Below are positions 11,675 through 34,406 of a stretch of DNA of 64,000 nucleotides, piece by piece. The first letter of the stretch is position 1. Each line of letters begins with the position of its first letter. Both the position numbers and the translations under genes were made by a program. The notes beneath the pieces were generated by a model. The model saw only the letters and a list, made by a program, of their open reading frames with translations. It did no database searches and was not told the DNA's origin. Origin of the DNA: Rhizobium sp. Q54 (lineage in GTDB: Bacteria > Pseudomonadota > Alphaproteobacteria > Rhizobiales > Xanthobacteraceae); the NCBI GenBank assembly GCA_945907045.1, contig CAMDSH010000006.1, positions 62,001 through 126,000 on the forward strand, read 5' to 3'.

Positions 11675-11704
11675 CGAAAGGGCGGCGAGTGTGCCGCCCT
11701 TTCG
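11675..11704 (+). terminator. hairpin after coxC
   Basis: Perfect 12-bp stem (CGAAAGGGCGGC / GCCGCCCTTTCG) with a 6-base loop, 20 bases after the coxC stop, followed only by a weak CGTTTC tail. It could be a partial terminator or an RNA-stabilising hairpin that sets the core oxidase subunits apart from the downstream assembly genes. Confidence 0.6.
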
Positions 11705-11744
11705 CGTTTCATGACGGCGCATGCTTTCGCCTGCGAAGAGTGAC

Positions 11745-12128: not shown

Positions 12129-12883
12129 GCAAGCCTGAGAAAACCGTTCGCAGGCGGCGCGGCGTCTTTGAGCCGTTCGTGCTTACGAGCGTCGCGGTCA
12201 TCATACTGATCGGGCTCGGCATCTGGCAGCTCGACCGCAAAATTTGGAAAGAACAGCTGATCGAAATGGTGACGCAGCGGCTCGCCGCGCCGCCTGCGTC
12301 CGGCCTGCCGCCGCGCGATCAGTGGATACGGCTTAAGCCGGAGCAGGAAGAATATCGCCGCGTGACGTTTCCCGCCGAATATCTCAACGAGCAGGAAGCG
12401 CTGGTTTATACCGCAGGCTCCGCGTTCCGCTCGGACGTCTCCGGCCCCGGCTATTGGGTGTTCACGCCGGTGCGGCTCGTCGGCGGCAGCATCGTGATCG
12501 TCAATCGGGGTTTCGTGCCGCTCGACCGCAAGGATCCGGCCACGCGCAAGGACGGCTCGCTCACCGGCATCGTCGATATCGTCGGCGTCATCCGCTTTCC
12601 CGAGGCGCGCGAGCTTTTCACGCCGGCGGACGAACCGAAAAACAACGTCTGGTATGTCCGCGACCCCAAGATGATCGGCGAAGCGAAAAACTGGGGCCGG
12701 GTGTCGCCGTTCTATGTCGAGCAGGAAGAGCCGCAGCCGCCGGGGAACCTGCCGCGAGCGGGCAGACTGGAAGTGAAGCTAACCAACAACCACCTGCAAT
12801 ACGCGCTCACCTGGTTCGCGCTCGCCGTGGTGTTCGTCCTGTGTTTCCTCTCGTGGCTGCGCAGCCGCCTGCGCGAGAGCTAA
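12125..12883 (+). CDS. SURF1 family oxidase assembly protein
   Basis: 252 residues of the SURF1/Shy1 family, which bind heme a and help insert it into CoxA. Two transmembrane helices flank a periplasmic domain: helix 1 FEPFVLTSVAVIILIGLGIWQ, helix 2 near the C-terminus (LTWFALAVVFVLCFLSWL). The family LGIWQLDRK and NNHLQYALTWF signatures are visible. The ATG overlaps the DUF983 stop, giving the natural start rather than the longer frame from 12005. Confidence 0.95.
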   Translation: MSKPEKTVRRRRGVFEPFVLTSVAVIILIGLGIWQLDRKIWKEQLIEMVTQRLAAPPASGLPPRDQWIRLKPEQEEYRRVTFPAEYLNEQEALVYTAGSAFRSDVSGPGYWVFTPVRLVGGSIVIVNRGFVPLDRKDPATRKDGSLTGIVDIVGVIRFPEARELFTPADEPKNNVWYVRDPKMIGEAKNWGRVSPFYVEQEEPQPPGNLPRAGRLEVKLTNNHLQYALTWFALAVVFVLCFLSWLRSRLRES

Positions 12884-18443: not shown

Positions 18444-18980
18444 CTAGCGCTTGAGGGCTTCAGCGACCGCGTCGGCGACCGCTTTTTCGCCCGGCGCTGT
18501 GCCGATCAGCCGCTCGACAATGGCCGTAGCGGCTTGCGCGGCGATACTGGAAACGTTCGCCATCGCCGCTTTCTTGGTGGCGGCGATGCTCTTTTCGGCG
18601 TCGGCAAGCTTCACGTTGAGCGCATCTTCCAGCTTCTTGCGGCTCGCTTGCGCCTCCGCCGCCTGCTTGTCGCGCATTTCATTGGCGATGAGTTGCGCGC
18701 GCGCACGGGCGTCGGCCAGCGCCTTCTCGTAGGCGGCGATGGCGGCGTCAGACTCGCCCTTCAAGCGTTGCGCTTCGGCGAGATCGTCGGCGATGCGCTT
18801 GGCACGGCCATCGATGATCGCGCCGATACGCGGCAGCGCGAGCTTCGACATTGCGACGTAGAGAAAAGTGAAGGCAATCGCCAGCCAGAATAGCTGCGAG
18901 GCAAAAGTCTGCGCGTTGAAGGGCGGGAACGGGATTTTATGCCCGCCCGGCGCCTCGGTATGCGCTGTGTTTGTTGCCAT
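18444..18980 (-). CDS. ATP synthase F0 subunit b'
   Basis: 178 residues, second stalk subunit (b'), with a transmembrane helix near residues 28-48 ([21 protein letters not shown]) followed by a charged coiled coil. Separate b and b' genes are typical of alphaproteobacteria and photosynthetic lineages, where a b/b' heterodimer replaces the b2 homodimer. Eleven bases separate it from atpF. Confidence 0.95.
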
Positions 18981-19011
18981 CGCGTCTGGCCTATCGTGGC
19001 CTGCGGTCCGC

Positions 19012-19239
19012 TTAGAGCGCGAACAGCAGCAGGAGCGCGATCAGCAGCGAGAAGATGCCGAGCGCTTCGGTGACGGCGAAGCCGAAAATCAGGTTGCCGA
19101 ACTGGCCCTGCGCGGCCGACGGATTGCGCACAGCGGCGGCCAGATAGTGGCCGAAGATGGCGCCCACGCCGACGCCGGCGCCGCCCATGCCGATGCAGGC
19201 AATTCCAGCGCCGATGTATTTCGCGGCGATCGGATCCAT
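19012..19239 (-). CDS. atpE: ATP synthase F0 subunit c
   Basis: 75-residue two-helix proteolipid that forms the rotor ring. The proton-carrying carboxylate is Glu58 in [15 protein letters not shown], and the polar loop reads [11 protein letters not shown]. Glu at this place with no Na-site Gln/Ser pattern suggests proton coupling. Between atpB and b' in the usual order. Confidence 0.97.
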
Positions 19240-19270
19240 GAGGAAAACTCCTTCTTAGGTTGAACGGGCT

Positions 19271-20020
19271 TCAGTGGCCCGGGTGAATCGCATCGTTGAG
19301 ATAGATGCAGGTGAGGATGGCGAAGACGTAGGCTTGCAGCACCGCGACCAGCATTTCCAGCGCGGTCAGCGCGATGGTGAGGCCGAGCGGCAGCACCGCG
19401 CCGGCCCAGCCGAAAACGCCGTAGGCGGTGAGCATGGTCACGAAGCTGGCGAAAACCTTCAGCGTGATGTGACCGGCCAGCATGTTGGCGAACAGTCGCA
19501 CGCTGTGCGAGATCGGGCGCGAGAGGAACGACATCACCTCGATCAGCACGATCAGCGGCAAGATGAAAATCGGGATGCCTTTCGGCACGAACAGATTGAA
19601 GAAGTGCAGGCCGTTCTTCCAGAAGCCGTACACCAGCACCGTGATGAACACCGAGAGCGAAAGCGCCGCCGTGATGACGATGTGCGTCGTCACCGTGAAG
19701 GCGTAAGGGATCAGCCCGATCAGGTTCACCGTCAGGATGAACATGAACAGCGAGAACACGAACGGGAAAAAGCGCATTCCCTCGGTGCCGGCGGTGCTGC
19801 GTATCGTGTTGGCGACGAATTCGTAGGACAGCTCGGCCATCGACTGCATGCGGTTCGGCACCAGCCGGCGGCTCGATGTGGCGCCGAGCAGGAAGGCGGT
19901 GATGCCGCCGACCGCGATCGCCATGAACAGCGCCGAATTGGTGAAGGCGATTTCGGACGAACCGATCTTGCCGAGCGGGACAAGGTCCACGATCTGGAAT
20001 TGGTGGATGGGGTCGGCCAT
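19271..20020 (-). CDS. atpB: ATP synthase F0 subunit a
   Basis: 249-residue membrane subunit forming the proton half-channels. The essential Arg lies in [12 protein letters not shown], and the C-terminal helix region is [22 protein letters not shown]. Its ATG shares one base with the TGA of atpI (TGATG), indicating coupled translation. Confidence 0.97.
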
Positions 20021-20376
20021 CAGTCGGTCCTATTCGCATCGGGCGCAACGCCCGCCGCGCGCATCACGTTGAGAACGCCGGCCGCAAAGCCGAGCAGCAG
20101 AAACACGATCATCCCCCACGGCGAGATTCCGAGCCAGCGATCCAGCAGCCAGCCGATCAGCGCGCCCACGATGACGCCCGCCACCAGTTCGGTCGAAAGC
20201 CGAAAACCGCGCGCGAGCGCCGATGGGTCGGCGGTCTGACGAGGACCGGAGCTATTTTCGGCGGGACGGCTCACTTGATTGAGCCGCTCGCCGAGATGCT
20301 GGAGCCTCGCGGAGAGATGAGCTTCGTCGTCCGGTTGGTTCTTGCGATCGCCTGTTCCGCGTTTGCCGTCAGCCAT
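20020..20376 (-). CDS. atpI: ATP synthase accessory protein AtpI
   Basis: 118 residues: a hydrophilic N-terminal half and two C-terminal transmembrane helices ([16 protein letters not shown] and [18 protein letters not shown]). AtpI/AtpZ-type proteins head F0 operons and are thought to aid c-ring assembly or Mg uptake. First gene of the operon; a 260-base region upstream should hold the promoter. Confidence 0.9.
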
Positions 20377-21624: not shown

Positions 21625-21906
21625 CTAGCCGTCCTCGTCCGGTGCGCCACCGCCGCCATCATGTTGCCGGGCGAAGTGAAACAGCATGACGACGAACACC
21701 ACAAGCGCGCCTTGCGCGGCGATGAATATGCCGAGCGGCATGTTCAGCACCGGCACGGTGATCTTGTTGAGCGGAATGACGAACAGATAAACGGTGAGCG
21801 AAAACAGCAGCCACAGCCCCAGCATCACCAGCATAAGCCGATTGCCGCGCAGCCAGTGCGCATGCTGCTGCTGAATAAAAGGCGATTGCCGGTCGAAAGG
21901 ATTCAT
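21625..21906 (-). CDS. orphan DUF4212 small symporter subunit
   Basis: 93 residues: HAHWLRGNRLMLVMLGLWLLF..., two transmembrane helices, and the segment IPLNKITVPVLNMPLG...QGALVVFVVMLFHFARQ. This is clearly homologous to the DUF4212 protein at 25257-25523, which pairs with the ActP-like symporter, but this copy has no large symporter next to it. GGGAGAG precedes the ATG at 21906. Last gene of a run of four small membrane-protein genes on this strand. It may form an alternative small subunit; this is inference. Confidence 0.85.
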   Translation of the reverse strand: MNPFDRQSPFIQQQHAHWLRGNRLMLVMLGLWLLFSLTVYLFVIPLNKITVPVLNMPLGIFIAAQGALVVFVVMLFHFARQHDGGGGAPDEDG

Positions 21907-22034
21907 CGGTGCTCTCCCTGCGCGGTTGCAACAGGCGGATGGCGACCCACACGAATCACATGTGTGAAAGCAAACGCCCCGGCAGGCGGGGCGTCCAGTC
22001 AAATCGGCGGAGATTTTGCCGGAGCCGCTCTGCG

Positions 22035-22403
22035 TTACAGGCCGAGCAGCGAGAAGAACAGCGCCATCACCCACATCGAGATGGCGATGACCGAGGTCCA
22101 CATCGCGAAGGTCAAATAAGTGTCGCGCAGGATCGTCGCGCTCGCCCACTGGGCATAGGCTTCCGGCGGCCGGAAATCCTTCTCCAGATACAGCCACATC
22201 TCGGTCTTGCGGTAATCCTTGGTCAGCGCTTCGCGCGCCTTGTAGATAAGGATTATGGCCATCATCGTGGTGAGAAAACCGCCGGCCTGGAATGCGAGCG
22301 CCGGTATGAAAGACATGCCGATCATTACGCAAAAGATCGCGAGACAGCCAAAACCGCAGGCCCGCAGCACCGTCTCGTAAGCAATGCGCCGCATCTCTTC
22401 CAT
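22035..22403 (-). CDS. small membrane protein of unknown function (four-helix)
   Basis: About 122 residues starting MEEMRRIAYETVLRACG. Two hydrophobic helices near the N-terminus (CGFGCLAIFCVMIGM; GGFLTTMMAIILIY), a soluble loop (KAREALTKDYRKTEMWLYL), then a C-terminal helix (WTSVIAISMWVMALFFSLLGL). I do not recognise the family. A start at 22421 is also possible. Lies between the orphan DUF4212 and another small membrane-protein gene, so co-transcription is likely. Confidence 0.72.
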   Translation of the reverse strand: MEEMRRIAYETVLRACGFGCLAIFCVMIGMSFIPALAFQAGGFLTTMMAIILIYKAREALTKDYRKTEMWLYLEKDFRPPEAYAQWASATILRDTYLTFAMWTSVIAISMWVMALFFSLLGL

Positions 22404-22516
22404 GGAGACGCCCGTGAGCATGAACTGAATGAGCAGGCTACCGCGCTAGGCTGACTAGTTTCAACCGGTGGCCGCCGCCGGCACGCCAGCTGTGCACGGT
22501 AATCGCATTGCTGCGA

Positions 22517-22843
22517 TTAAAGGCCGAATTGCAGAAAATTACCGATGGCGGGGAGCGTGAGCAGCGCGGTGCCCGCCAGCCATATCCACAGCGATGCCGC
22601 GGTGGAGTCATCTTTGGCGCCGATGAAGTGCTCATAGATGGCGGCCGGGATTCCGCCGATGATAATCGTCGCGGTTGACACCATCAGCGAGGAAAACAGC
22701 AGGGTCAGCGGCGTGCTGCCGAACAAAAGCGTCGGCGCCAAAATCTGGACGTGCAACAAAGCAAACAGCAGCGCGATCTGGTTGAACAGGCCGTTGATCA
22801 TGCCGAAAAAAGCGATGCCGATGTAATAGAAGTTTTTTTCCAT
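22517..22843 (-). CDS. small membrane protein of unknown function (three-helix)
   Basis: 108 residues starting MEKNFYYIGIAFFGMINGLF. Three hydrophobic stretches are visible (residues about 5-28, 38-65 and 80-105), with little soluble sequence. Not recognised. Begins 7 bases after the stop of the YggT-like gene, so it belongs to the same transcription unit. It may be part of a membrane complex with its neighbours; this is inference from position. Confidence 0.72.
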   Translation of the reverse strand: MEKNFYYIGIAFFGMINGLFNQIALLFALLHVQILAPTLLFGSTPLTLLFSSLMVSTATIIIGGIPAAIYEHFIGAKDDSTAASLWIWLAGTALLTLPAIGNFLQFGL

Positions 22844-22850
22844 GGCGCGC

Positions 22851-23156
22851 CTAACCAACCTTGGGCGCGAGGCCCAGAACCAAAAATAGATAGAGCATCA
22901 GCACGCGCAACCAGAACATCCACACGAATCCGAACAGCCAGAGCACGACCGGTTGCGTTGCCTTCGGAGTCACCAGCGCGAGAATTGCAAGAACCGGGTC
23001 GGTAATCCGGCAGAAGAACCGCCAGATGTAATTCGGCGAATCCGGGTCCACGAATAGGCCGAGCAGCACGCGCCCCAGCATCGTGTACATCAACGCTGCC
23101 AGAATGAAATTCGGCAGGTGGAAATACCAGTAGGTGAGAAAGGAAGCGCCGGTCAC
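22851..23156 (-). CDS. YggT-like small membrane protein
   Basis: 101 residues from a GTG at 23156 that follows GAGGA at workable spacing. The order of features resembles YggT/Ycf19 proteins: an N-terminal helix (FHLPNFILAALMYTMLGRVLLG), the loop SPNYIWRFFCRITDPVLA, and a C-terminal helix. YggT proteins are linked to membrane-protein or cofactor assembly and osmotic tolerance in some bacteria; the match here is moderate. First gene after the symporter terminator, and first of the four-gene membrane block. Confidence 0.7.
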   Translation of the reverse strand: MTGASFLTYWYFHLPNFILAALMYTMLGRVLLGLFVDPDSPNYIWRFFCRITDPVLAILALVTPKATQPVVLWLFGFVWMFWLRVLMLYLFLVLGLAPKVG

Positions 23157-23212
23157 CGGATGTCGATCCTCATTTAAGCGCACAATGGCCGCTGCAGGTT
23201 GGCGCGGCAATC

Positions 23213-23243
23213 GAAAAAAAGCGGGGCCCCGTAGGGCCCCGCT
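23213..23243 (-). terminator. Rho-independent terminator after the ActP-like symporter gene
   Basis: Read on the minus strand: a perfect 10-bp stem (AGCGGGGCCC / GGGCCCCGCT) with a 4-base loop, followed by seven T residues. It lies about 20 bases after the symporter stop and separates the DUF4212-symporter pair from the downstream membrane block. Confidence 0.9.
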
Positions 23244-23265
23244 CCAGCTTAGATCGCGAGTGCGA

Positions 23266-25242
23266 TCAAGCCTTTTCCTCGAGCACCGTCTTGCCACGCG
23301 GCTTCCGGATCTCGTCGACGTAGGCTTGCATTTCCTTCGACGGTTCCTTGCCCATGAGGCTGACGACGTAGATCACCAGGAAGCCGAGAGGCATGCCCAG
23401 CAATCCGCAGGCGATGTTGTTGAGGTCGAACCAGCCGATCTTGTTGGCCATCGGATGCGCAAGTGTCGGCCAAGTTTCCATGGCATTTGGAAGTGCCATA
23501 GCCTTGGCGATATCGACAAGTGGTGCACCGGTGAGCGGGCTCAGCAGCGAGCTCATGCCGAAGTACTTCACGCCGTAACCAGGGAAGTACCTGGTGCAGA
23601 CGAGATAGAACAGGCAGAGACCGAAGCCGGCCAGCATGCCGCAGATCGCGCCAGTTGCTGTCGTGCGTTTCCACCAGACGCCCATGACGAGAGCCGGGAA
23701 GTTACCGGCCATCGCGAGGGAGAACGCCCAGCCGACCATGGCCAGGATGTCGCCCGGTTTGGTCGCCGCAAGCGCAGCCGACGCCACCGCCACGAAGAAC
23801 AAGAGAACGCGAGCCACGGTGAGCCGGCGGATCGTCGGCGCATTCGGGTCGAGCATCTTGTAGTAGATGTCGTGGGACAGTGCGTTGGCGATGGCGAGCA
23901 GGAGCCCGTCAGCGGTCGAAAGCGCCGCCGCCAGACCGCCCGCGGCCACCAGACCCGAGATCACGTACGGAAGGCCCGCGATCTCCGGCGTGGAGAGCAC
24001 GATCACGTCCGTATTGATGACGAAGTCTTGCAGACGAACGACGCCGGTGTGGCCTGCGATCGCCTTACAAGCGGCGACAACGTCGGCGATGCTGCTGGCA
24101 TTCTTGCCGCAGATCTGAATCAGACCGAGTTGACCCCACTGGAACAGCCAGGGCTTCAAGGAGGTGACGTTGGCCCCGATGATGTTGGTGTACACCTCCA
24201 GCTTCGAGAACGCGGCGTAAGCAGGCGCCGAGAAGTAAAGCAGGAAGATGAACAGCAGCGACCACGCTACCGACTGCCGCGCTTCACGCACCGACGGGGT
24301 GGTGAAATAACGCATCAGGATGTGCGGCAGCGAAGCGGTGCCGACCATCATGCAGAAGATGATCGCGAAGAAGTTCAGCGGGCTGTAGTTGATGAACGGC
24401 TGGATGTGCGGCTTGAGAGTAGCCGCCGTCGCCAGACCGTTGGCCAGCATCTGGTTTTCACGAGCGGTAATTTCGGCGATCGCGGTTCCGTAGGTGAGTT
24501 CCGGAATCGGAATGCCGTAATGCTGTGTCGACAAGATGACGATCGGAGTGAGGTAGGCGATGATCAGCACGATATACTGTGCGATCTGCGTCCAGGTCAC
24601 CGCCCGCATGCCGCCCAGCATCGCGCAGAGCAGAATGCCGACGAGGCCGGCGAACACGGCGACTTCGAACTGCATGCCAAGGAAGCGCGAGGCAATCAGG
24701 CCGGTGCCGTAAATCTGCGCCGTCACGTAAGTGAAGGAGCAGCAGACGAGCACGATCACCGCGATGAAGCGGGCGAAGTTGCCGCCGAACCGGAACGCCA
24801 TAAAGTCCGGAACCGTGTAGGCGCCGAATTTGCGCAGATACGGTCCGATCAAGATGGACACCAGCACGAAACCGCCGGTCCAGCCAAGCACCCACGCGAT
24901 GCCATCGTAGCCGAGCAGGAAGAGCGTGCCGGCCATGCCGACGAAGGAAGCTGCCGACATCCAGTCGGCGCCGGTCGCCATGCCGTTGTAGAAGGCCGGC
25001 ACGCGCCGGCCAGCGACGTAATATTCGGATAGCTGTGCCGTTCGCGTCATAACACCGATGACGGCGTAAACCGCCAGCGTGAAGAACACGAACAGATAGC
25101 CAAGAACCTTGTTCGGGACACCCATCTGCTCAAGGATCGCGAGCAGGACGATGAAGGCGACGAAGCCGCCCGCATAAGTGCCATACATCCGGCCGAGTTG
25201 CTTATAAAAGGCGTCTGCGCCGGCAGCGGTTTGTGTTGCCAT
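23266..25242 (-). CDS. ActP-like sodium:solute (acetate/carboxylate) symporter
   Basis: 658 residues, SSS family (SLC5-like), about 13-14 transmembrane helices. Family features: SEYYVAGRRVPAFYNGMATGADWMSAASF near the N-terminus, GLAAALSTADGLLLAIANALSHD in the core, and RKFGAYTVPDFMAFRFG. It is longer than classical E. coli ActP (about 550) owing to an extra loop around residues 370-430 with Cys residues. Paired with a DUF4212 small subunit just upstream, the known two-component symporter type linked to acetate uptake. Nearby CrbS/CrbR-like genes strengthen a carboxylate role. Substrate is inferred. Confidence 0.88.
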   Translation of the reverse strand: MATQTAAGADAFYKQLGRMYGTYAGGFVAFIVLLAILEQMGVPNKVLGYLFVFFTLAVYAVIGVMTRTAQLSEYYVAGRRVPAFYNGMATGADWMSAASFVGMAGTLFLLGYDGIAWVLGWTGGFVLVSILIGPYLRKFGAYTVPDFMAFRFGGNFARFIAVIVLVCCSFTYVTAQIYGTGLIASRFLGMQFEVAVFAGLVGILLCAMLGGMRAVTWTQIAQYIVLIIAYLTPIVILSTQHYGIPIPELTYGTAIAEITARENQMLANGLATAATLKPHIQPFINYSPLNFFAIIFCMMVGTASLPHILMRYFTTPSVREARQSVAWSLLFIFLLYFSAPAYAAFSKLEVYTNIIGANVTSLKPWLFQWGQLGLIQICGKNASSIADVVAACKAIAGHTGVVRLQDFVINTDVIVLSTPEIAGLPYVISGLVAAGGLAAALSTADGLLLAIANALSHDIYYKMLDPNAPTIRRLTVARVLLFFVAVASAALAATKPGDILAMVGWAFSLAMAGNFPALVMGVWWKRTTATGAICGMLAGFGLCLFYLVCTRYFPGYGVKYFGMSSLLSPLTGAPLVDIAKAMALPNAMETWPTLAHPMANKIGWFDLNNIACGLLGMPLGFLVIYVVSLMGKEPSKEMQAYVDEIRKPRGKTVLEEKA

Positions 25243-25256
25243 GATTTTTCTCTCCC

Positions 25257-25523
25257 TCAGTCGTCTTCAGCCATGCCGAACTCGCGGTCGATCTTGTCCT
25301 GCTGTTTCGCGAACATGAACAGCATGACAACGAACACGATCAGCGAGCCCTGAGCGGCCATGTAGAAGCCGAGCGGGAAGCCGAGCACTGGGATGACGAT
25401 GGTGTTTAATGGTTTGACGAACATGTGGATGACGTAACCGAAGAAGAACCAGACGCCGAGATGCATGAACATCAGCCTGGTGGTCTTCCTCCAGTGTGCG
25501 TCGGTGTTTGATTGACTGGCCAT
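25257..25523 (-). CDS. DUF4212 small subunit of the symporter
   Basis: 88 residues starting MASQSNTDAHWRKTTRLMF; two helices and the conserved VKPLNTIVIPVLGFPLGFYM and QGSLIVFVVMLFMFAKQQD segments. DUF4212 proteins precede ActP-like symporter genes and are considered their small subunit. GGAGGG precedes the ATG at 25523, so the longer frame from 25664 is not used. Fourteen bases separate it from the symporter gene. Confidence 0.9.
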   Translation of the reverse strand: MASQSNTDAHWRKTTRLMFMHLGVWFFFGYVIHMFVKPLNTIVIPVLGFPLGFYMAAQGSLIVFVVMLFMFAKQQDKIDREFGMAEDD

Positions 25524-25830
25524 GAGTTGCTTGCCCTCCCTCAAAGCACCGGCCCGCAGGTGCGGTCCGGATGTGAACGTGCGAGGGGGGCCGACTGTCG
25601 GCCATTGCGGCACCCCCCTTTGCCGCTGCCCCAGTCCGTTTTTTGCAGACGGTTCCGAGGTCAATGATAAAAGGTAGCACCGAGACTTAGGCTGCCCGTA
25701 TAAGACTTTCGGCCAAGGGAAACGGCTATAGCTACTGAGTTAATTGACTTTTTTGCGATGATTGTTTCGCAGATGCGAAGACGGCTCGAACGATTACAGT
25801 GATGCGATGAATATCTTGGAGAAAATAGTG
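25524..25830. promoter_or_regulatory. divergent region upstream of the symporter operon
   Basis: About 307 bases with no gene. It holds an odd palindrome at 25589-25603, runs of C and T around 25611-25645, and an AT-richer stretch around 25660-25760 where promoters for the minus-strand symporter operon and the plus-strand unknown gene could lie. No hexamer pair is convincing. Confidence 0.4.
25589..25603. repeat. 15-bp inverted repeat upstream of DUF4212-symporter operon
   Basis: GGCCGAC-T-GTCGGCC, two perfect 7-base arms around one base, 66 bases upstream of the DUF4212 start. It has the look of an operator for a dimeric regulator such as the nearby LuxR-type protein; no binding data are known to me. 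Confidence 0.5.
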
Positions 25831-26445
25831 ATGGGTTTTTTGGATATATTTCGCTTCCGTCGCCGGTCCCCGATCCGGGATTCGCAGGCGCTCGCGAAGT
25901 TCATCGACGAGAATTCCGCCTTTCTGGTGCAGAAGGCGATCTACGAATATTCGCGCGCCCGCGCCGGCCATTATTCCAAAGTGCTCTTTGCCGAGCCGGA
26001 ATTTCACCAGGCGGTCGAGCAATCGCGCTGGCGCTCTTATCCGCTCGGGCTCGTGATGGTGACGGAGGTCGCCGACAACGTGCTGCATTCGAACAGCACG
26101 GCCAACCGGCGCAGCGACCTCGATAAGCTTATGGGCGTCATTCTGGGGGTTTTCGACGGTTATCCGGTGCCCGCGGCTTTGGGAGAGGCCGCATGGAGTA
26201 AATTGCGCGGTGAACTGGAGCAGCGCCTGAAACTCATCGGCCTGCACCCGCCCAAACGCGCCATCGATATTCCTGAGCCTTTCGCGAAGCTTTATTTCGA
26301 ACTGATGCCGATTCACGAAAAGCTGCGGGGGCGCGATTTCATGACCACGAGCAATTATCTGAAAGTGACGCTTGCCAATATCCATCACGAATTGACCGAG
26401 CGCATCGATATCACCGCCATTACCGGCGCATTGCGCGCGGGCTAA
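25831..26445 (+). CDS. conserved protein of unknown function near the acetate-type regulon
   Basis: 204 residues from the ATG at 25831, which follows GGAG at about 9 bases; an ATG at 25807 would add eight residues. Soluble, no signal peptide. Mostly helical, starting MGFLDIFRFRRRSPIRD, with charged segments QALAKFIDENSAFLVQKAIY, SRARAGHYSKVLF and ELMPIHEKLRGRDFMTTSNYL. I do not recognise a domain. It lies between the divergent symporter operon and the response regulator. Confidence 0.72.
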   Translation: MGFLDIFRFRRRSPIRDSQALAKFIDENSAFLVQKAIYEYSRARAGHYSKVLFAEPEFHQAVEQSRWRSYPLGLVMVTEVADNVLHSNSTANRRSDLDKLMGVILGVFDGYPVPAALGEAAWSKLRGELEQRLKLIGLHPPKRAIDIPEPFAKLYFELMPIHEKLRGRDFMTTSNYLKVTLANIHHELTERIDITAITGALRAG

Positions 26446-26479
26446 ATGGCCCTAAACGAGGCCCGTGCCCCCGCTTGTT

Positions 26480-26510
26480 TTGCGAGCCTTTTAGACTGGC
26501 TTCCTATAAT
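26480..26510 (+). promoter_or_regulatory. candidate sigma-70 promoter of the response regulator
   Basis: A perfect TATAAT at 26505-26510 is preceded by a TTGCGA at 26480-26485, but the 19-base spacer is longer than ideal. It would give a leader of about 105 bases before the response-regulator start. Confidence 0.4.
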
Positions 26511-26621
26511 GTGACCCGTAGTTTTTAAGCCGCCGTTCCGGACCCCTTTTTATGCGGGCTTGCACGGGGGCAGGGGCGGCGGAACAATGCCCGGCCGCGA
26601 CGGCCGCGACAGTCAACGTGA

Positions 26622-27308
26622 GTGAGTAGCGTGAATTCGTCCGAGTCCCACCGGCTGGTGATTGCCGACGACCATCCCTTGTTCCGCGGCGCGTTGCGCG
26701 AGGCGGTCACCGGGCTGTTCGAGCACATGGACATCGCGGAAGCTGGCTCGTTCGACGAGGTCGCCGACCTGCTGGAGCGCGACAGCGAGGTCGATCTCAT
26801 TCTGCTCGACCTGACCATGCCGGGCGTGCGCGGATTTTCCGGCCTGATGTACATGCGCGCGCAATATCCGAGCGTGCCGGTGATCGTGGTGTCGGCGAAC
26901 GACGATCCCGCCGCCATTCGCCGCTGCATGAAGTTCGGCGCTTCCGGTTTCATCCCGAAGACACTCGGCGTTGATGCGATGCGCTCTGCCATCGCGCGCA
27001 TCCTCAACGGCGGCGTGTGGACGCCGCCCGACGTCGATCTCGACAGCGGCTCGGACGCGGAGACCGCCGAACTGATGACGCGGCTGGCGACGCTGACGCC
27101 GCAGCAGGTGCGCGTTCTGATGATGTTGTCGGAAGGCCTGCTCAACAAGCAGATCGCCTATCAGCTCGGCGTGTCGGAGGCGACGGTGAAAGCCCACGTC
27201 TCGGCGATTTTGCAGAAGCTCGGCGTGGAGAGCCGCACCCAGGCGGTGATCGCGGCTTCCAAGATCGAAGTCGGGCAATGGTCCGCGAGCGTCGCGGCCG
27301 AAACCTAA
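26622..27308 (+). CDS. LuxR/NarL-family response regulator (CrbR-like)
   Basis: 228 residues. An N-terminal receiver domain has the acidic pair in VIADDHPLFRG and the phospho-acceptor Asp in LILLDLTMPGVRG, with the Lys in FIPKTLGV. The C-terminal HTH reads LTPQQVRVLMMLSEGLLNKQ...VSEATVKAHVSAIL, a LuxR DNA-binding domain. GTG start at 26622 or 26631. It converges on the hybrid kinase 6 bases away. A symporter-type kinase plus a LuxR regulator is the CrbS/CrbR (MxtR/ErdR) arrangement that controls acetate use in Vibrio and Pseudomonas; the assignment here is by architecture and neighbours. Confidence 0.9.
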   Translation: MSSVNSSESHRLVIADDHPLFRGALREAVTGLFEHMDIAEAGSFDEVADLLERDSEVDLILLDLTMPGVRGFSGLMYMRAQYPSVPVIVVSANDDPAAIRRCMKFGASGFIPKTLGVDAMRSAIARILNGGVWTPPDVDLDSGSDAETAELMTRLATLTPQQVRVLMMLSEGLLNKQIAYQLGVSEATVKAHVSAILQKLGVESRTQAVIAASKIEVGQWSASVAAET

Positions 27309-27314
27309 ATCTTC

Positions 27315-30300
27315 TTATTCTGCCGCGGCGATCCGCTGTACCCGCCATTGCGCGAGCAGCGCGCGCAGCGCCGCCGGCTTGATCGGCTTGTTGAGAATCT
27401 GAATGCCTTCGGTGCGTGCTTCCTCGCGCACTTTCGGGCTGCGGTCGGCGGTAATCAGAATTGCCGGCAAATCCTCTCCGAGGCGGCGGCGCAATCCGTT
27501 GATCGCCTCGATGCCGTTGCCTTCGTCCAGGTGGTAATCGACCAGCAGTCCGTTCGGCGCCAGCGTGCTTTCCTCGATCGCTAGCAGCGCGGTTTTCAGA
27601 TCGGGCGCCTTGATCACCTGACAGTCCCAACCGCCCAGCAGCGTTTCCATCCCGTCGAGGATCGCGGGCTCGTTGTCGATGCACAGGACGATGGTGCCTG
27701 CGAGCTGGCCGGGATCGATGCGCGGCGTATCGCGCTGCGGCAGCGCGCTTGGCGCGGCGTTCGACAGCGGCACCTCGATGGAGAAGTTCGAACCGCGCCC
27801 GACCGCCGATTTCACTTCCACCTCGTGCCCGAGCACGCGCGCGATGCGCTCGACGATGGAAAGACCGAGGCCGAGCCCGCGCGCGATCTTGGCGCCCTGA
27901 TCGAGCCGGTGGAATTCCGTGAAGATGATGCGCTGTTTCGACGGCGGGATGCCGACGCCGGTATCGTAGACGTCGATGCACAGGTTGCTCCCGCGCAACC
28001 GGCAGCCCACCAGAACGCGCCCTTTCGGCGTGTATTTGATGGCATTGGAGATGAGGTTTTGCAGCAGCCGGCGCAGCAGGCGGCGGTCGGATCGTACGAC
28101 GCGCGAGCAGGGGACGAAGGTCAATTCCAGCCCCTTGGCGCTGGCCAGCGGCGTGAACTCGACCTCGATCTGGCGGAGCAGTTCGTCCATGCGAAAGCTT
28201 GCGAGTTCCGGCCGCATGGCGCCGGAATCGAGCCGTGAGATATCGAGCAGCGCGCCGAAAATTTCCTCGACCGCTTCGAGTGAGGCATCGATGTTGCCGA
28301 CGAGCTGGGTGTTTTCGCTCACTGCTTGCCGCTCGACCAGGCTGGTGACGTAAAGCCGCGCCGCGTTGAGCGGTTGCAGGATGTCGTGGCTTGCCGCTGC
28401 GAGGAAGCGGGTCTTGGAGATGTTGGCCTCGTCGGCTTCGCCCTTGGCGCGCGCCAGCGCGGCGTTGAGGCGCGTGAGCTGCTCGGTGCGCTCGCGCACG
28501 CGGCGCTCCAGCGTCTCGTTGGCTTTCTCCAGCGCTTCGGCGGCTTCCACGCTTGGCGTGATGTCGGTGAAGGTCGTGACGATGCCGCCGTCCGGCATGC
28601 GGTTGGCGCGCACTTCGATCACCAGCCCGCGCTCGGCGAAGCGCTCGAGGAACGGCTCACTGCCGGAGACGTAGCGGCCGATCTGCTCGCGCACCAGTTC
28701 GTCGATGCGGCCGGCGCCGAGTTCGCTGTTCTTGGCGTTGTAGCGCAAAATTTCGTCGAGCCCGATGCCGACGCGCGTCACCGCCGGCGGCAGGTCGAGC
28801 ACTTCGCCGAACTGCCGGTTCCAGCAGATCAGCTGCAGGTCCTTGTCGAACACCGCGATGCCCTGGCGCACGTGATCGAGCGCGGTTTGCAGAATTTCGC
28901 GGTTGTACTGGATCGCGGTGTTGGCGTCGTCGAGCAGCTTGAGCGCGGCTTTGGTCGATACCGTCGGCTTGCGAAGCAGCAGCGATAGCACCAGACGCGA
29001 GGACGCCGCGCCGATCGCCGAAGCGAGCATGTGTTCGGCGTAGCGCAGAAGCTGGAAATCCGCTTCGGCTTTCGGATCGACGCTGATGCGCCGCGCCGTG
29101 GCGAAGCTCTCGATCGAGGATCGCGCGCGATCCTCGCCAAGATAGCGCGCCACCGTCGTGGTCAGCTCCTCCACCGTCACGGAAGACCGCCAGAGCCGGA
29201 AGCTCGGTGAGATCGGCGTGAGATCAGCCGGGACGAACACGTTGGCCTGCAAGCGCTCGATTGGCGAGGGCGCGCGGCTAAGCGAGAAGCCGATAAAGGC
29301 CATGATGTTGACCGCGAGGCTCCAGATCACCCCATGCACCAGCGGCGGCAGGTCGAGCCCGAGCAGATGCTGCGGCCGCAGCAGCGTGAGGCCCAAGGGT
29401 CCATCGCGCAGTAAATCGCCGCCGACGATGCCGACATCGGCGAAGCTCGGCAGCAGCAGCGTATAGCCCCAGACCAGGAAGCCGCAGACCATCCCCGCGA
29501 TGGCGCCGCGCGCGGTGCCGCGCCGCCAGATCACGCCCCCGAAAAAAGCCGGGGCAAGTTGCGCGACCGCCGCGAACGACAACAGGCCGATGGAGGCGAG
29601 CTGAGCTTCGCCCGCCGAGCGGTAATACATGTAAGCCAGAAACAGGATGAAGAAGATCGCGAGCCGCCGCACCGTGAGCAGCAGCGTGCCGACATTCTCG
29701 TGGCCGGTGAGCAGCATTTGCCGGCGCTGCAACACGAACGGCATGACGATGTCGTTCGACACCATGATGGAGAGCGCGACCGATTCCACGATCACCATCG
29801 CGGTGGCGGCCGACAGCCCGCCGACGAAAGCGGCGATGGTGAGCATGTGCGAGCCGGTGGAAAGCGGCAACGCCAGCACGAACATGTCGCTGTCCACCTT
29901 GCCGAAAGGAAACGTCAGCAGGCCGGCGACCGCGATCGGCACCACGAACAGATTGATCAGCACCAGATAAATCGGAAACATCCAGGCCGCGCGTTTGACC
30001 TCGCCCTCGTTGTTGTTCTCGACAACGGTGACGTGGAACTGGCGCGGCAGCAGCACGATGGCGACGAACGATAGCAGTGTCATCGCCACCAGCGTGTCGA
30101 TGCGCGGCTCGCGCGTGAATATCGCGGCGGTGTGCGGCTGCTTCATCGCTTCGGTAAACAGCGCGACCGGCCCATCGAACATCCAGAACGTCACGAACAC
30201 ACCGACTGCGAGGAAGGCGACGAGTTTGACGATCGACTCGATCGCGATCGCCAGCATCAGTCCGTCCTGATGCTCGGTCGCGTCGATGTGCCGGGTGCCG

Positions 30301-30836
30301 AACAGCACGGCGAAGATCGCCATCGAAAACGCCACGAACAGCGCGATGTCGCCGAAGAATGGATGAACCGCGGCGCCATCGGTCGCGATATGCGACATGA
30401 TGGTCTCCAGCGACGAGGAGACCGCTTTGAGCTGCAGCGCGATGTAGGGAATGGTGCCGATGATGGCGATGAGCGCGACAGTGGCGGCGACCGCCTGGCC
30501 CTTGCCGTAGCGCGCGGCGATGAAGTCGGCGATTGAGGTGATGTTCTGCATCTTGGCGAGCCGCACCATGCGCAGGATGAGCGGCGCGCAGAGGCCGATC
30601 ATCAGCACCGGCCCGATGTAGATGGCCAGAAAGTCGAATCCGGTGCGCGAGGCGAGGCCGACCGAGCCGAAGAACGTCCACGACGTGCAATAGATCGCCA
30701 GCGAAAGCGGATAGATCATCGGCCGCAGGCGGCTCTCGCGGCCGGCCAGACGGAAACGGTCGCCATAGCTCGCGATGAGGAACAGCAGGCCGATATAGCC
30801 GAGCGCGAACGCGATAACGACCCAGCCTTGCAGCAT
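27315..30836 (-). CDS. hybrid histidine kinase with N-terminal sodium:solute symporter domain (CrbS/CbrA-like)
   Basis: 1173 residues in one chain. Residues 1-500: SSS transporter-like domain of about 13 helices (ISTSWTFFGSVGLASRTG-type start, STGSHMLTIAAFVGGLSAAT core). About 520-640: a STAC-like linker (SVTVEELTTTVARYLGEDRA). About 650-760: a PAS domain (DHVRQGIAVFDKDLQLICWN). About 800-1030: kinase with H-box FLAAASHDILQPLNAARLY and ATP-lid GVGIPPS...GLGLGLSIVERIA. C-terminal receiver with Asp in NGLLVDYHLDEG and Lys in ILNKPIKP. Such proteins sense or transport a substrate and signal it; the nearby symporter suggests acetate or a related acid. Confidence 0.95.
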   Translation of the reverse strand: MLQGWVVIAFALGYIGLLFLIASYGDRFRLAGRESRLRPMIYPLSLAIYCTSWTFFGSVGLASRTGFDFLAIYIGPVLMIGLCAPLILRMVRLAKMQNITSIADFIAARYGKGQAVAATVALIAIIGTIPYIALQLKAVSSSLETIMSHIATDGAAVHPFFGDIALFVAFSMAIFAVLFGTRHIDATEHQDGLMLAIAIESIVKLVAFLAVGVFVTFWMFDGPVALFTEAMKQPHTAAIFTREPRIDTLVAMTLLSFVAIVLLPRQFHVTVVENNNEGEVKRAAWMFPIYLVLINLFVVPIAVAGLLTFPFGKVDSDMFVLALPLSTGSHMLTIAAFVGGLSAATAMVIVESVALSIMVSNDIVMPFVLQRRQMLLTGHENVGTLLLTVRRLAIFFILFLAYMYYRSAGEAQLASIGLLSFAAVAQLAPAFFGGVIWRRGTARGAIAGMVCGFLVWGYTLLLPSFADVGIVGGDLLRDGPLGLTLLRPQHLLGLDLPPLVHGVIWSLAVNIMAFIGFSLSRAPSPIERLQANVFVPADLTPISPSFRLWRSSVTVEELTTTVARYLGEDRARSSIESFATARRISVDPKAEADFQLLRYAEHMLASAIGAASSRLVLSLLLRKPTVSTKAALKLLDDANTAIQYNREILQTALDHVRQGIAVFDKDLQLICWNRQFGEVLDLPPAVTRVGIGLDEILRYNAKNSELGAGRIDELVREQIGRYVSGSEPFLERFAERGLVIEVRANRMPDGGIVTTFTDITPSVEAAEALEKANETLERRVRERTEQLTRLNAALARAKGEADEANISKTRFLAAASHDILQPLNAARLYVTSLVERQAVSENTQLVGNIDASLEAVEEIFGALLDISRLDSGAMRPELASFRMDELLRQIEVEFTPLASAKGLELTFVPCSRVVRSDRRLLRRLLQNLISNAIKYTPKGRVLVGCRLRGSNLCIDVYDTGVGIPPSKQRIIFTEFHRLDQGAKIARGLGLGLSIVERIARVLGHEVEVKSAVGRGSNFSIEVPLSNAAPSALPQRDTPRIDPGQLAGTIVLCIDNEPAILDGMETLLGGWDCQVIKAPDLKTALLAIEESTLAPNGLLVDYHLDEGNGIEAINGLRRRLGEDLPAILITADRSPKVREEARTEGIQILNKPIKPAALRALLAQWRVQRIAAAE

Positions 30837-30842
30837 CAGCGT

Positions 30843-30878
30843 AACCTTCCGGCGCCGGGTGCTAAGTCCCGGCAGGTT
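30843..30878. repeat. bulged inverted repeat between kinase and exonuclease-fusion genes
   Basis: Arms AACCT...GCCGGG and CCCGGC-AGGTT pair with a 6-base bulge on the left and an 8-base loop. It lies in the 178-base divergent region, close to the kinase start, and could be a regulator site or an RNA hairpin. Confidence 0.4.
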
Positions 30879-31014
30879 AAAGGTTTTACCGCCTCTAGGT
30901 CACCACAGATCGGGCTTCAGGTCCATCGCGCGGCTGCGGCTTCGGAGCGGCTTGTCACCGGTCAAAACAACAGACATGGAAACCGGCATGATCCGGCTTG
31001 TCCCGGGGAGACAC

Positions 31015-33132
31015 ATGGCAAAACTCGCCAGCGCAACGCCGTTGATCGCTCTTGAAGCGGTCGCGATCGACACCGAGACCACGGGGCTCGATCCGGCGAG
31101 CGCGCGCATCGTCGAGGCCGCCGCGGTGCGGCTGGCCGGCGGGCGGATCGACGAGAAGTCGGCTTATCGCTCGCTGGTCAACCCGGGCGAGCCGATACCG
31201 GCGGCTTCCACGCGTATCCACAACATTGGCGATGCCGCGGTCGCATCTGCGCCCGCCTTCAAGGCAATGTGGCCGGAACTGAGCGCGATGATCGGCGGCG
31301 AAATCGTCATCGGTCACACGCTCGGCTTCGACCTTGCGGTGCTCAAGCGCGAATGCGAACGCGCGGGTTTGCCGTGGCAACGTCCGCGCACGCTTGATAC
31401 GCGGCTGCTGGCGCAGGTGGCGGAGCCAAATCTCGGCGGCTACACGCTCGATCACCTTGCCGCCTGGCTCGGAGTGGACATCGCCGGCCGCCATTCGGCG
31501 CTCGCTGACGCCATCATGACGGCGAAGATATTTCTCGCGCTGCTGCCGAAGCTGCGCGAAGGTGGCATCCGCACGCTGGCGGAAGCCGAGCAGGCCTGCC
31601 TCGCGCTCACCAAGGTGCTGGAAGATCATCACCGCGCCGGATGGCTGGAAGCGGTGGCGGCGCCGGGCGCGGATGCCGCGGAGAGCGCGCTCGCGCGCAT
31701 CGACACCTATCCTTACCGCCATCGTGTGCGCGACGTGATGAGCGCGCCGGTGAAATTTATTCCAGGCTCGACACCGCTTGGCGATGCGCTCAAGCGCATG
31801 GCGGCGGACAACATCTCATCGTTGCTGGTTGCCGACGCCGACCCCGTTTCCGCCGGCGATGCCGGCATCGTTACCGAACGCGACGTGCTGCGAGCGCTGG
31901 CCAAACACGGCGCGCAGGCACTTACGCTTGCGGTGGACAAGCTCGCCAGCCGCCCGCTCGCCGCGGTGCCGGCCGATGCTTTCGTCTATCGCGCGCTCGG
32001 CCGCATGAACCGGCTCAAATTACGCCACCTCGGCGTCGAAGACGGAGATGGACTGATCTGCGGCGTTGTCACGTCGCGCGACCTGTTGCGGCTGCGCGCG
32101 CAGGAAGCCGTAACGCTCGGCGATCATATCGACGAGGCGGCTGATGTTCCTGAACTTGCGCGCGCCTGGGTACGGCTGCCGCGCGCCGCTTCCGAACTGC
32201 GCGCCGAAGGCGTGCCGACCATCGGCATCGCCGCTGTGATCTCGCACGAACTGGGCGCGTTGACGCGCCGCGCCGCCGTGCTCGCCGAACAGTGGATGCA
32301 GGCGGAAGGCCTTGGGCAAGCGCCCTGCCGTTACGCGATGTGCGTGCTCGGTTCGGCCGGGCGCGGCGAAAGCCTGCTGGCGATGGATCAGGACAACGCC
32401 ATTGTTTTCGCGGAAGGCGCGCCGGACGGAGATGCCGACCGCTGGTTCGCGCGGCTGGGCGCGATCGCCGCTGACATCCTGCACGAAGTTGGCGTGCCGT
32501 ATTGCCAGGGCGGCGTGATGGCGCGCAATCCGCAATGGCGCGGCTCGGTCGCGACCTGGCGCGAGCGCATCGATGGGTGGATCGGGCGCTCCAATCCGGC
32601 GGATCTGCTTTCGGTCGATATTTTCTTCGATCTTGCCGGCGTGCACGGCGACATGGCTATGGCGAATGCGCTCTGGCGCAGCGCCTTCGATACCGCGAGC
32701 GGCAACGCCGCGTTCGCCAAGCTGCTCGTGGAAGCGGCGGGCGAGGCGGAACCCGGGCTCAACATGTTGGGCGGCATTCGCACCGAGGGCGGGCGCATAG
32801 ACTTGAAAAAAACCGCTCTGTTCGGAATCGTCACCACGGCGCGCGTTCTAGCCATACGCCATCACATTCTTGAGCGTTCGACCTCGGCGCGGCTCGCGGG
32901 CGTGATCGCGCTCGGTCACGGCGGCGCGCACGATCTAGGCGCGCTGGGGCACGCGCAAGGCGATATTCTCGACCTCATTCTCGGCCAGCAGATCGTGGAC
33001 ATCGAGCGCGGCTTGCCGCCAGGCAACAAGGTTGTGCTCAAACGGCTGAGCGGCGAGGAGCGCGGGCGGCTGAAATCCGCGCTTGCGGCGGTGGGCCATC
33101 TCGACGAGTTCACGCGCGACCTGCTGTTCTAG
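31015..33132 (+). CDS. fused DEDDh exonuclease - CBS pair - DUF294 nucleotidyltransferase
   Basis: 705 residues. N-terminal DnaQ-like exonuclease with all DEDDh residues visible: AIDTETTGLDP (Asp19, Glu21), IGHTLGFDLAVL, and GRHSALADA (His and Asp). Two CBS domains span about 237-375 (RVRDVMSAPVKFIPG; VTSRDLLRLR). From about 400 comes the GlnD-like nucleotidyltransferase with VLGSAGRGESLLAMDQDNA, then the DUF294 C-terminal helical domain. GGGGAGA precedes the ATG at 31015. In many gammaproteobacteria the exonuclease and the CBS/DUF294 protein are separate neighbours of DUF4212-symporter genes; here they are one chain. Biochemical role unknown, likely signalling or nucleotide-linked control of acetate metabolism. 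Confidence 0.9.
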   Translation: MAKLASATPLIALEAVAIDTETTGLDPASARIVEAAAVRLAGGRIDEKSAYRSLVNPGEPIPAASTRIHNIGDAAVASAPAFKAMWPELSAMIGGEIVIGHTLGFDLAVLKRECERAGLPWQRPRTLDTRLLAQVAEPNLGGYTLDHLAAWLGVDIAGRHSALADAIMTAKIFLALLPKLREGGIRTLAEAEQACLALTKVLEDHHRAGWLEAVAAPGADAAESALARIDTYPYRHRVRDVMSAPVKFIPGSTPLGDALKRMAADNISSLLVADADPVSAGDAGIVTERDVLRALAKHGAQALTLAVDKLASRPLAAVPADAFVYRALGRMNRLKLRHLGVEDGDGLICGVVTSRDLLRLRAQEAVTLGDHIDEAADVPELARAWVRLPRAASELRAEGVPTIGIAAVISHELGALTRRAAVLAEQWMQAEGLGQAPCRYAMCVLGSAGRGESLLAMDQDNAIVFAEGAPDGDADRWFARLGAIAADILHEVGVPYCQGGVMARNPQWRGSVATWRERIDGWIGRSNPADLLSVDIFFDLAGVHGDMAMANALWRSAFDTASGNAAFAKLLVEAAGEAEPGLNMLGGIRTEGGRIDLKKTALFGIVTTARVLAIRHHILERSTSARLAGVIALGHGGAHDLGALGHAQGDILDLILGQQIVDIERGLPPGNKVVLKRLSGEERGRLKSALAAVGHLDEFTRDLLF

Positions 33133-33215: not shown

Positions 33216-34406
33216 TTGATCGCGCGACCGGATCGCGGCGCGAGGCGCGCAGCGGCCGCATCGCCTGAGAAACGCCGGCCCTTGCTCTCTTCATTCAACC
33301 TGCGGCGCATCCCGCTCGGCCAGCTGGCCGAGACGCTGCTGATCGCGACGGCGGGCGGCGCGGCGTTCGGTCTTTTAGGTATTCCCGCCGGATGGCTTTC
33401 GGGTTCGATGCTCACGGTGGCCGTGGCCGCGCTCGCGGGCCGTCCGGTGATGATGCCGAACCCGCTGACGCGCACGATTTTCGTGCTGATCGGAATTTCG
33501 CTCGGCGCGGTGGTGACGCCGGAGACGCTGCAAGGAATAGCGGCCTGGCCGCTCAGCCTTGCCGTTCTCATCGTCGCGCTGGTGTGCATGCACGCGGCCG
33601 CCACCGCTTATCTGTATTACGTCCATCGCATCGATCTGACCTCGTCGCTGCTGGCGGCGGCACCGGGAGCGCTCTCGCAGGTCGTGGTGCTCTCGACCGA
33701 AACCGGCGCCGATCTGCGCGCGGTGGCGATCGTCCAAACGATGCGAGTGGTGATCGTGTCGGTCGGCCTGCCCGCCGGGCTGGTTGCGCTGGGTCTTGCC
33801 GCCGCGCCGGCGCGCATGATCGGGGGGCCGTTCAGCCTTGAAATTCTGCCCGAGCTGGCGGGACTGATCGCGGTCTCGACGCTGGTGGCGGTGATTTTCT
33901 ACCGCCTGCATTTCCCTGGCGGCTTGCTGTTCGGCGCGATGTTGTGCTCGGCCGTTCTGCATGGCACCGGCGTCGTCCATGCGGTGATGCCGTGGTGGGT
34001 GGCGAACGCCGCGATGGTTGCGCTTGGTGCGGTCACCGGCTCGCGCTTCGCCAACACGTCGTTGCGGTTGTTGCTGAAATATATCGGCGCTGCGTTCGGT
34101 TCGTTCGCGGTGGCGACGGCGGTCGCCGCCGTATTTGTCTGGGTGCTCACCAGCTTTCTGTCGTTCCGCATCGCCGATGCGATCATCGCTTTCGCGCCCG
34201 GCGCGGTCGACGCCATGATGATCCTGGCGCTCGCGCTCAATCTCGATCCGGTCTATGTCGGCGCGCATCATCTCGCGCGTATTTTCTTTGTCTCGCTTAC
34301 GCTGCCATTCGTCGCGCACGTGGCGAGCCGCAGTGCGTCGTTGCCGCCGCAAAGGGCTGAGCAGCCGCCGCTCACCAAAGTGATGCTCGAAGACGATGAG
34401 GATTGA
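33216..34406 (+). CDS. AbrB-family membrane protein (putative transporter)
   Basis: About 396 residues from a TTG at 33216; a TTG at 33282 (LSSFNLRRIPLG) is an equally plausible start, and neither has a strong ribosome-binding site. About ten to eleven transmembrane helices in two related halves, each with a G-x-PAGWL...GSML-type or FPGGLLFGAML-type segment, the internal duplication seen in the membrane AbrB family (often mislabelled transcription regulator or ammonia monooxygenase). The substrate is unknown. Convergent with hemA. Confidence 0.85.
   Translation: MIARPDRGARRAAAASPEKRRPLLSSFNLRRIPLGQLAETLLIATAGGAAFGLLGIPAGWLSGSMLTVAVAALAGRPVMMPNPLTRTIFVLIGISLGAVVTPETLQGIAAWPLSLAVLIVALVCMHAAATAYLYYVHRIDLTSSLLAAAPGALSQVVVLSTETGADLRAVAIVQTMRVVIVSVGLPAGLVALGLAAAPARMIGGPFSLEILPELAGLIAVSTLVAVIFYRLHFPGGLLFGAMLCSAVLHGTGVVHAVMPWWVANAAMVALGAVTGSRFANTSLRLLLKYIGAAFGSFAVATAVAAVFVWVLTSFLSFRIADAIIAFAPGAVDAMMILALALNLDPVYVGAHHLARIFFVSLTLPFVAHVASRSASLPPQRAEQPPLTKVMLEDDED

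Follow-up and report, generated by a model that had tools for sequence, protein, structure and literature searches.

Introduction

The two-component system CrbS/CrbR (MxtR/ErdR) of Vibrio and Pseudomonas and its counterpart in Sinorhizobium fredii NGR234 are the closest described relatives of a group of genes found at positions 21625-33132 of a 64,000-nucleotide stretch of DNA from Rhizobium sp. Q54. This stretch, referred to as the window, comprises bases 62001-126000 of contig 6 (CAMDSH010000006.1) of a draft genome that is 91% complete and spans 3.3 Mb over 74 contigs. In Pseudomonas, acs and actP are under the control of CrbS/R, the activation of acs needs the ACTU inverted repeat, and Pflu5625, which is annotated with CBS and nucleotidyltransferase domains, belongs to the regulon (PMC5715377). 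In P. putida, ErdR is reported to bind upstream of pp_0354, at the promoter of this CBS gene, which shares an operon with pp_0353, a gene for an exonuclease, and mutants in actP-I and pp_0353 are impaired on pyruvate, not on acetate (PMC9927547). Ubiquinone is reported to inhibit the autophosphorylation of MxtR (PMC7918813), and VC2704/VC2705 of V. cholerae, a putative cation-acetate symporter, is listed with CrbR (VC2702), to which it is near by locus tag (PMC7858070). In S. fredii NGR234, crbS and crbR are convergent and both required for growth on acetate, and a sister SLC5/STAC system serves pyruvate (PMC9100948).

Here, we describe the Rhizobium sp. Q54 locus, which as a whole is probably an alphaproteobacterial form of the CrbS/R module for short-chain acids. 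Its symporter belongs to a subtype that is accompanied in nearly all alphaproteobacterial loci examined by a YggT-like membrane protein and a soluble protein (SOL). This opens a route to accessory-protein roles for SLC5/SSS carriers, which, to our knowledge, are usually regarded as one-protein carriers with one small partner at most. Furthermore, the association of a CrbR-box-like site with the presence of CrbR predicts part of the acetate/pyruvate regulon in Bradyrhizobium and relatives.

A symporter subtype with near-constant partners

The symporter genes form an operon on the minus strand in the order D4a, SSS, YggT-like, TM113, TM128 and D4b. The first gene, D4a (25257-25523), encodes a small DUF4212 symporter subunit (PF13937, E 7.8e-26) and is followed by the gene for a sodium/solute symporter of 658 amino acids (SSS, 23266-25242), which reaches 675.8 bits with the VC_2705 model TIGR03648 (cut-off 320.75). 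The last gene, D4b (21625-21906), encodes a second DUF4212 protein (PF13937, E 1.8e-12, over cut-off). With the small-subunit model TIGR03647, these two DUF4212 genes score 82.8 and 43 bits (cut-off 26.05). Since the models for both subunits are matched above cut-off, the DUF4212-symporter pair named in a preliminary description of this DNA is present. Its label "ActP-like" does not hold as a family membership, as the symporter reaches only 162 of the 1099.25 bits of the cut-off of the ActP acetate permease model (TIGR02711) and falls into the VC_2705 family instead. Furthermore, no match to DUF485, the partner of ActP, was detected in the 91% complete genome. An open reading frame for a 235 amino acid DUF4212 fusion (21625-22332) was rejected, because its N-terminal part is over-long and the real gene is D4b.

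The unknown membrane genes of the preliminary description are those for the YggT-like protein (22851-23156, 101 amino acids, GTG start), TM113 (22517-22843), which starts 7 bases past the stop codon of the YggT-like gene, and TM128 (22035-22421). Its unknown soluble gene is SOL (25831-26445, plus strand), which is divergent from the operon and encodes about 204 amino acids.

The conservation of this arrangement was assessed in two ways. With the alignment profile of TM113 as bait, contigs were searched and the best 80 of 183 relatives (the named loci) were analyzed for gene presence by tblastn; as only 44 of the 80 are 20 kb long, all counts are lower bounds. All 80 contain the YggT-like gene, and at least 79 contain SSS, 76 TM128, 66 D4a and 63 SOL. 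At least 45 contain the regulator described below (42 at ≥55% identity), 33 the SLC5 part of the kinase, 43 the exonuclease, 42 the CBS-DUF294 part (39 at ≥45% identity) and 38 UPF0047. In 16 of the 17 named loci without SOL, the stretch begins at most 644 bases from D4a or SSS or contains neither. The record names include Bradyrhizobium, Afipia, Hyphomicrobium and Microvirga. All ten counted genes are found in at least 24 of the 80 named loci, and at least 26 have kinase and regulator genes in convergent orientation no more than 600 bases apart. The combination of symporter, CBS-DUF294 protein, exonuclease and CrbS-type kinase is also met repeatedly in further lineages of the phylum. Thus, the comparison of neighbourhoods that had been proposed as a check finds the linkage kept, and as the gene order recurs in many genomes, the grouping seen in the window is not due to chance.

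Because TM113 was the bait for the named loci, a search with the symporter is the less biased test of linkage. In 385 genomes of the class, it yielded 93 matches in 90 genomes at E ≤ 1e-90, namely 64 of subtype II (≥55% identity; 55 loci examined) and 29 of subtype I (39-43%; 5 examined). A further search with DUF4212 matched 67 of 249 genomes of the phylum, and 39 loci were examined (32 subtype I, 7 subtype-II-like). The subtypes were split at 44% identity, with subtype I at 26-39% and subtype II at ≥46%; 14 subtype II loci lie at 46-49%, and L223 (49%) is counted as subtype II. With subtype I members, the window symporter shares 34-39% identity (tblastn), and the median lengths are 678.5 (subtype II) and 596 amino acids (subtype I) in trimmed frames.

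The YggT-like gene lies directly downstream of the symporter gene in 53 of the 55 subtype II loci of the class and in none of the 5 subtype I loci; SOL is found upstream in divergent orientation at 48 of the 55 and at none of the 5. Neither gene was detected in the 32 subtype I loci of the DUF4212 search, so that all 37 subtype I loci examined are negative. Among the seven subtype II loci without a divergent SOL, three (L264, L271, L298) carry it elsewhere in the stretch, and two (L267, L283) have only 11 and 685 bases upstream. The YggT-like gene is missing from L283 and from L284, whose genome has one on another contig (L259). Genomes of only about 1.2-1.3 Mb (L303, L304, L306, L307) keep D4a-SSS-YggT-like with divergent SOL. 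Of the other genes, TM113 is found in 19, TM128 in 25, the exonuclease in 30 and CBS-DUF294 in 32 of the 55 loci. In a tree of 73 symporters, which contains long branches and near-copies, the presence of the YggT-like gene is clustered, with 3 changes where shuffled labels gave 23.4 on average. The seven subtype-II-like loci of the DUF4212 search, of which L220 is also in the class set, have the YggT-like gene downstream in four cases and SOL in two, and L218 carries the YggT-like gene upstream of D4a. Thus, the partnership with the YggT-like protein and SOL is a rule of the class and weakens outside it.

The YggT-like protein is a remote relative of YggT, as judged from its alignment, in which PF02325 is matched at E ≤ 0.01 by 42 of 47 members (best 1e-6); the window member scores 18.4, below the gathering score of 27. 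Its sequence profile gave nothing significant against PDB chains (best E 0.13). TM113 has no Pfam match, and its best named matches are metagenome-assembled genomes labelled Pseudorhodoplanes, Rhizobium and Pseudolabrys. TM128, which also belongs to no family, occurs in 21 of 150 genomes of the order, including its own; its model consists of three long helices (pLDDT 86.6) without a match in PDB at E ≤ 0.001. L049, L059, L063, L124 and other named loci contain another TM128-like gene of about 30% identity between those for TM113 and TM128, which suggests a local duplication. In L029-L033, L035, L037 and L040, TM128 relatives stand in fetched stretches, some of them short, without a symporter match. 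Relatives of D4b are present in two of the 80 named loci (L046, L124). SOL has no family and 18 invariant columns in 50 sequences; it is modelled entirely as helices (mean pLDDT 93.8). A Foldseek comparison of this model with PDB and BFVD gave nothing at E ≤ 0.001 (best 0.086 and 0.44, respectively), and the sequence profiles of SOL gave at best E 0.076, then nothing, against PDB chains. No match to SOL or the YggT-like protein was found in plasmid records, and PHROGs gave nothing significant for four proteins of the locus (best E 0.061). A riboswitch candidate has been tied to TIGR03647 (PMC6429828); an Rfam scan of the window found only tRNAs over threshold and included no direct check for this candidate.

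Sensor, regulator and nuclease fusion

Downstream of SOL lie a gene for a LuxR-type response regulator with Response_reg and GerE domains (26622-27308, plus strand) and, convergent with it, a gene for a hybrid histidine kinase (27315-30836, minus strand). PAS_7, HisKA, HATPase_c and a C-terminal REC domain of the kinase all score over cut-off. Its N-terminus has no match to Pfam SSF and is nevertheless of the SLC5 type, as it matches PDB 10ed_A ("histidine kinase") with E 3.9e-60 and aligns with the symporter in a profile-profile comparison (hhalign) with a probability of 96.3 over 218 columns. The earlier view of a kinase with a transporter-like domain convergent with a LuxR regulator is thereby borne out, and the protein resembles CrbS (SLC5-PAS-HisKA-HATPase-REC). 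STAC is absent from the general library matches of the kinase, which included no search aimed at the SLC5-PAS stretch. For the regulator, the best NCBIfam model is ErdR (NF041830) with 233.7 bits, below the cut-off of 390; we therefore call it CrbR-like.

The gene at 31015-33132 (plus strand), divergent from the kinase gene, encodes a fusion of a DEDDh-type exonuclease, a CBS pair and a DUF294 nucleotidyltransferase-like part. RNase_T (PF00929, E 4.3e-30), CBS, DUF294 and DUF294_C are all over cut-off, in agreement with the protein described previously; the putative DEDDh and nucleotidyltransferase residues were assigned by eye. The open reading frame is listed from 30859, and its start is probably the ATG at 31015, which follows GGGGAG. 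Exonuclease and CBS-DUF294 form a single open frame in 37 of the 39 named loci in which both stand together on one strand. Among the class loci L255-L274, they are fused in one case, separate in seven, on opposite strands in four and far apart in one, and the loci of the phylum show three fusions and eight cases far apart or in other order. Hence, the fusion is not general beyond the named loci.

The locus is flanked by a UPF0047 gene (PF01894, 21159-21620, plus strand), which is convergent with the end of the operon, and by a gene for an AbrB-duplication membrane protein (33216-34406, plus strand) just past the exonuclease-CBS-DUF294 gene. Genes for an ATP synthase b-type subunit and an ATPase_gene1-type protein (18444-20376, minus strand) are probably part of an F0 operon.

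A CrbR-box-like site before D4a

A position weight matrix was built from the 16 distinct ACTU sites of PMC5715377 (Table 4), most of which are predictions with weak q-values. Hits were assessed against shuffled sequences that preserve neighbour composition only, in genomes that are related to each other. In the window, the best 16-mer lies at 25716-25701 on the minus strand in the intergenic region between D4a and SOL, 193 bases before the start of D4a (p 0.02). Three runs gave a hit at p ≤ 0.05 within 300 bases before D4a for 39, 40 and 37 of the 77 loci, with the best hit at -240 to -175 in 63 of the 77; in loci L186-L217, it was found in 17 of 32. At the same threshold, control regions before other genes gave 0/77 (SSS), 2/90 (TM113), 2/25 (kinase), 4/44 (UPF0047) and 9/89 (YggT-like). 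Upstream of the regulator gene 10 of 52 regions were positive, perhaps reflecting autoregulation.

The site follows the presence of CrbR in the genome. Among the subtype II loci of the class, D4a regions are positive at p ≤ 0.05 in 10 of 15 CrbR-positive and 3 of 39 CrbR-negative cases (Fisher 2.6e-5, one-sided), where presence means a relative at the single threshold of E ≤ 1e-45, some being only 43-46% identical. This test covers 54 of the 55 loci, as the stretch of L267 does not contain D4a.

In 29 acs upstream regions from 28 genomes, 11 are positive at p ≤ 0.05. The half-site GACCAAAGT occurs before acs in 7 of 29 regions, including that of the window's own genome (shuffled mean 0.02), where a site-like sequence lies at -116. 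The acs and D4a promoters share the motif only in part.

Proposed function and alternatives

We propose that the CrbS-like kinase, with SLC5-type and PAS input, would hand phosphate to the CrbR-like regulator, which would bind the ACTU-type inverted repeat between D4a and SOL and thereby raise the expression of D4a-SSS-YggT-TM113-TM128-D4b and probably also of acs elsewhere in the genome. The DUF4212-SSS pair would import acetate or a similar monocarboxylate, e.g. pyruvate. The YggT-like protein would most likely be an accessory membrane subunit and SOL a cytosolic assembly or activity factor, with TM113, TM128 and D4b as additions in some lineages. The exonuclease-CBS-DUF294 protein may tune the same metabolism post-transcriptionally in response to adenylates, which would couple uptake to nucleotides.

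That the sensor controls uptake, as the preliminary description had suggested, is supported by the CrbR-box-like site, since it tracks the presence of CrbR relatives. Several observations weigh against the CrbS/R interpretation. Only 4 of the 55 subtype II loci of the class carry the SLC5 part of the kinase within the stretch that was fetched, a CrbR relative at E ≤ 1e-45 is missing from many subtype II genomes, and the regulator falls below the ErdR cut-off. A significant site is absent from all 50 regions before the exonuclease-CBS-DUF294 gene and from the D4a region of 5 of the 15 CrbR-positive loci, and the matrix stems mostly from weak-q predictions. One acs region out of 29 contains the half-site that is common before D4a, and three D4a regions out of 77 contain the acs-type half-site GACCAAAGT; a strict full-site pattern occurs in 0 of 29 acs and 6 of 77 D4a regions. 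Outside the class (L214, L218, L222, L223), the YggT-like gene lies downstream in one of four loci (L214) and SOL in none. Moreover, the loci are related and not independent, and studies on Pseudomonas report that actP deletions barely alter growth on acetate and that one harms growth on pyruvate (PMC5715377, PMC9927547).

Because of the rarity of the kinase and the many genomes without a CrbR relative, the transporter must also work without CrbS/R, and the kinase stands next to it in some lineages without being an obligate part. The idea of one joint system is supported only in part. A wider proposal, which we advance tentatively and hold to be rather doubtful, is that the subtype II symporters of the class are multi-subunit SLC5 transporters. 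The YggT-like protein would then be an obligate membrane subunit and SOL a factor in the cytosol with a new, all-helical fold; TM113, TM128 and D4b would be lineage-specific subunits, and the entire assembly would be switched by CrbR where it exists and by other means elsewhere. The weakening of the pattern outside the class and the partial agreement of the acs and D4a sites slightly lower the odds of both this proposal and the CrbS/R interpretation.

Alternatively, the YggT-like protein, TM113, TM128 and SOL may not be parts of the transporter and may be co-expressed with it for another task, e.g. membrane-protein assembly or metabolic stress upon acid uptake. We regard this as possible, though not as probable. 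It is in line with L259, in which a YggT-like-TM113-exonuclease-CBS-DUF294 run (at about 9442-12358) has no symporter match and the symporter with D4a and SOL stands on a different contig of that genome (L284), as well as with the TM128 relatives in stretches without a symporter, where no other family is common to more than 3 of 12 such loci. It fits poorly with the position of the YggT-like gene, which in the class directly follows subtype II symporters almost invariably, even in genomes of 1.2-1.3 Mb, and subtype I symporters in none of the 37 loci examined.

To a similar, rather low degree we expect the substrate to be not acetate but pyruvate, lactate, propionate or another small acid, with the kinase sensing an internal or redox state. 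The pyruvate phenotypes of the P. putida actP-I and pp_0353 mutants, the use of the sister SLC5/STAC system for pyruvate in S. fredii and the inhibition of MxtR by ubiquinone point in this direction; the failure of the S. fredii crbS and crbR mutants on acetate and the partly similar site before acs in some genomes, including the window's own, point the other way. Acetate is thus a plausible substrate, and pyruvate equally so.

It is very unlikely that the genes are mere neighbours without a joint function, an idea favoured by the missing SLC5 kinase at most of the subtype II class loci examined and the lack of a significant site before the exonuclease-CBS-DUF294 gene, because the co-linkage recurs across many families, in which order and strand vary, and the site tracks CrbR even where CrbR lies elsewhere in the genome.

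Coming back to the CrbS/R interpretation, linkage of its components is also seen with subtype I. Phylum-wide, the exonuclease is found in 20 and the SLC5 kinase in 10 of the 32 fetched subtype I stretches, and L190, L194, L196 and L206 combine symporter, CBS-DUF294, exonuclease and kinase with an adjacent convergent regulator.

Comparison with described systems

Literature searches found nothing on DUF4212, on YggT with a sodium/solute symporter or on DUF294 with exonuclease and acetate, and the matches for YggT, symporter and acetate were judged unrelated. The near-constant partnership with the YggT-like protein and SOL and a site that follows CrbR were likewise not found in print by this search.

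The CrbS/CrbR (MxtR/ErdR) systems of Vibrio and Pseudomonas share with the window the SLC5-PAS-kinase-REC sensor, the LuxR-type regulator, the ACTU-type site and the control of a symporter. In Pseudomonas, a CBS-domain gene that shares its operon with an exonuclease gene is controlled as well (PMC5715377, PMC9927547). In contrast to these systems, the window has adjacent, convergent kinase and regulator genes, a symporter of the DUF4212 type instead of DUF485-ActP, a single protein that combines exonuclease and CBS-DUF294, and additional genes for the YggT-like protein, TM113, TM128 and SOL. P. putida pp_0354/pp_0353 contain the same CBS and RNase_T parts, as two genes there and as one exonuclease-first fusion here. 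Together with Pflu5625 (PMC5715377), this pair (PMC9927547) makes clear that the link to nuclease and nucleotidyltransferase domains is not new. S. fredii NGR234 resembles the window in its adjacent convergent kinase and LuxR-type regulator genes on an alphaproteobacterial chromosome; as a difference, its context figure has no DUF4212 symporter in the legend, and no YggT-like or SOL genes are described in the excerpt (PMC9100948).

The TIGR03647/TIGR03648 pair (VC_2704/VC_2705) has the same order of small and large subunit, both over cut-off in the window; compared to subtype I members, the window's subtype is usually longer and has the YggT-like protein and SOL as partners. The YggT family (PF02325) is matched weakly and repeatedly, and the window member, under the gathering score, differs from it in being tied to a symporter operon.

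The combination of genes, which had been called unusual, is thus in large part known, given the control of symporter and CBS/exonuclease genes by CrbS/R in Pseudomonas and the convergent crbS/crbR of Sinorhizobium. Overall, the locus presents this regulon in a new arrangement, with four extra small membrane genes (YggT-like, TM113, TM128, D4b) and SOL as its new components.

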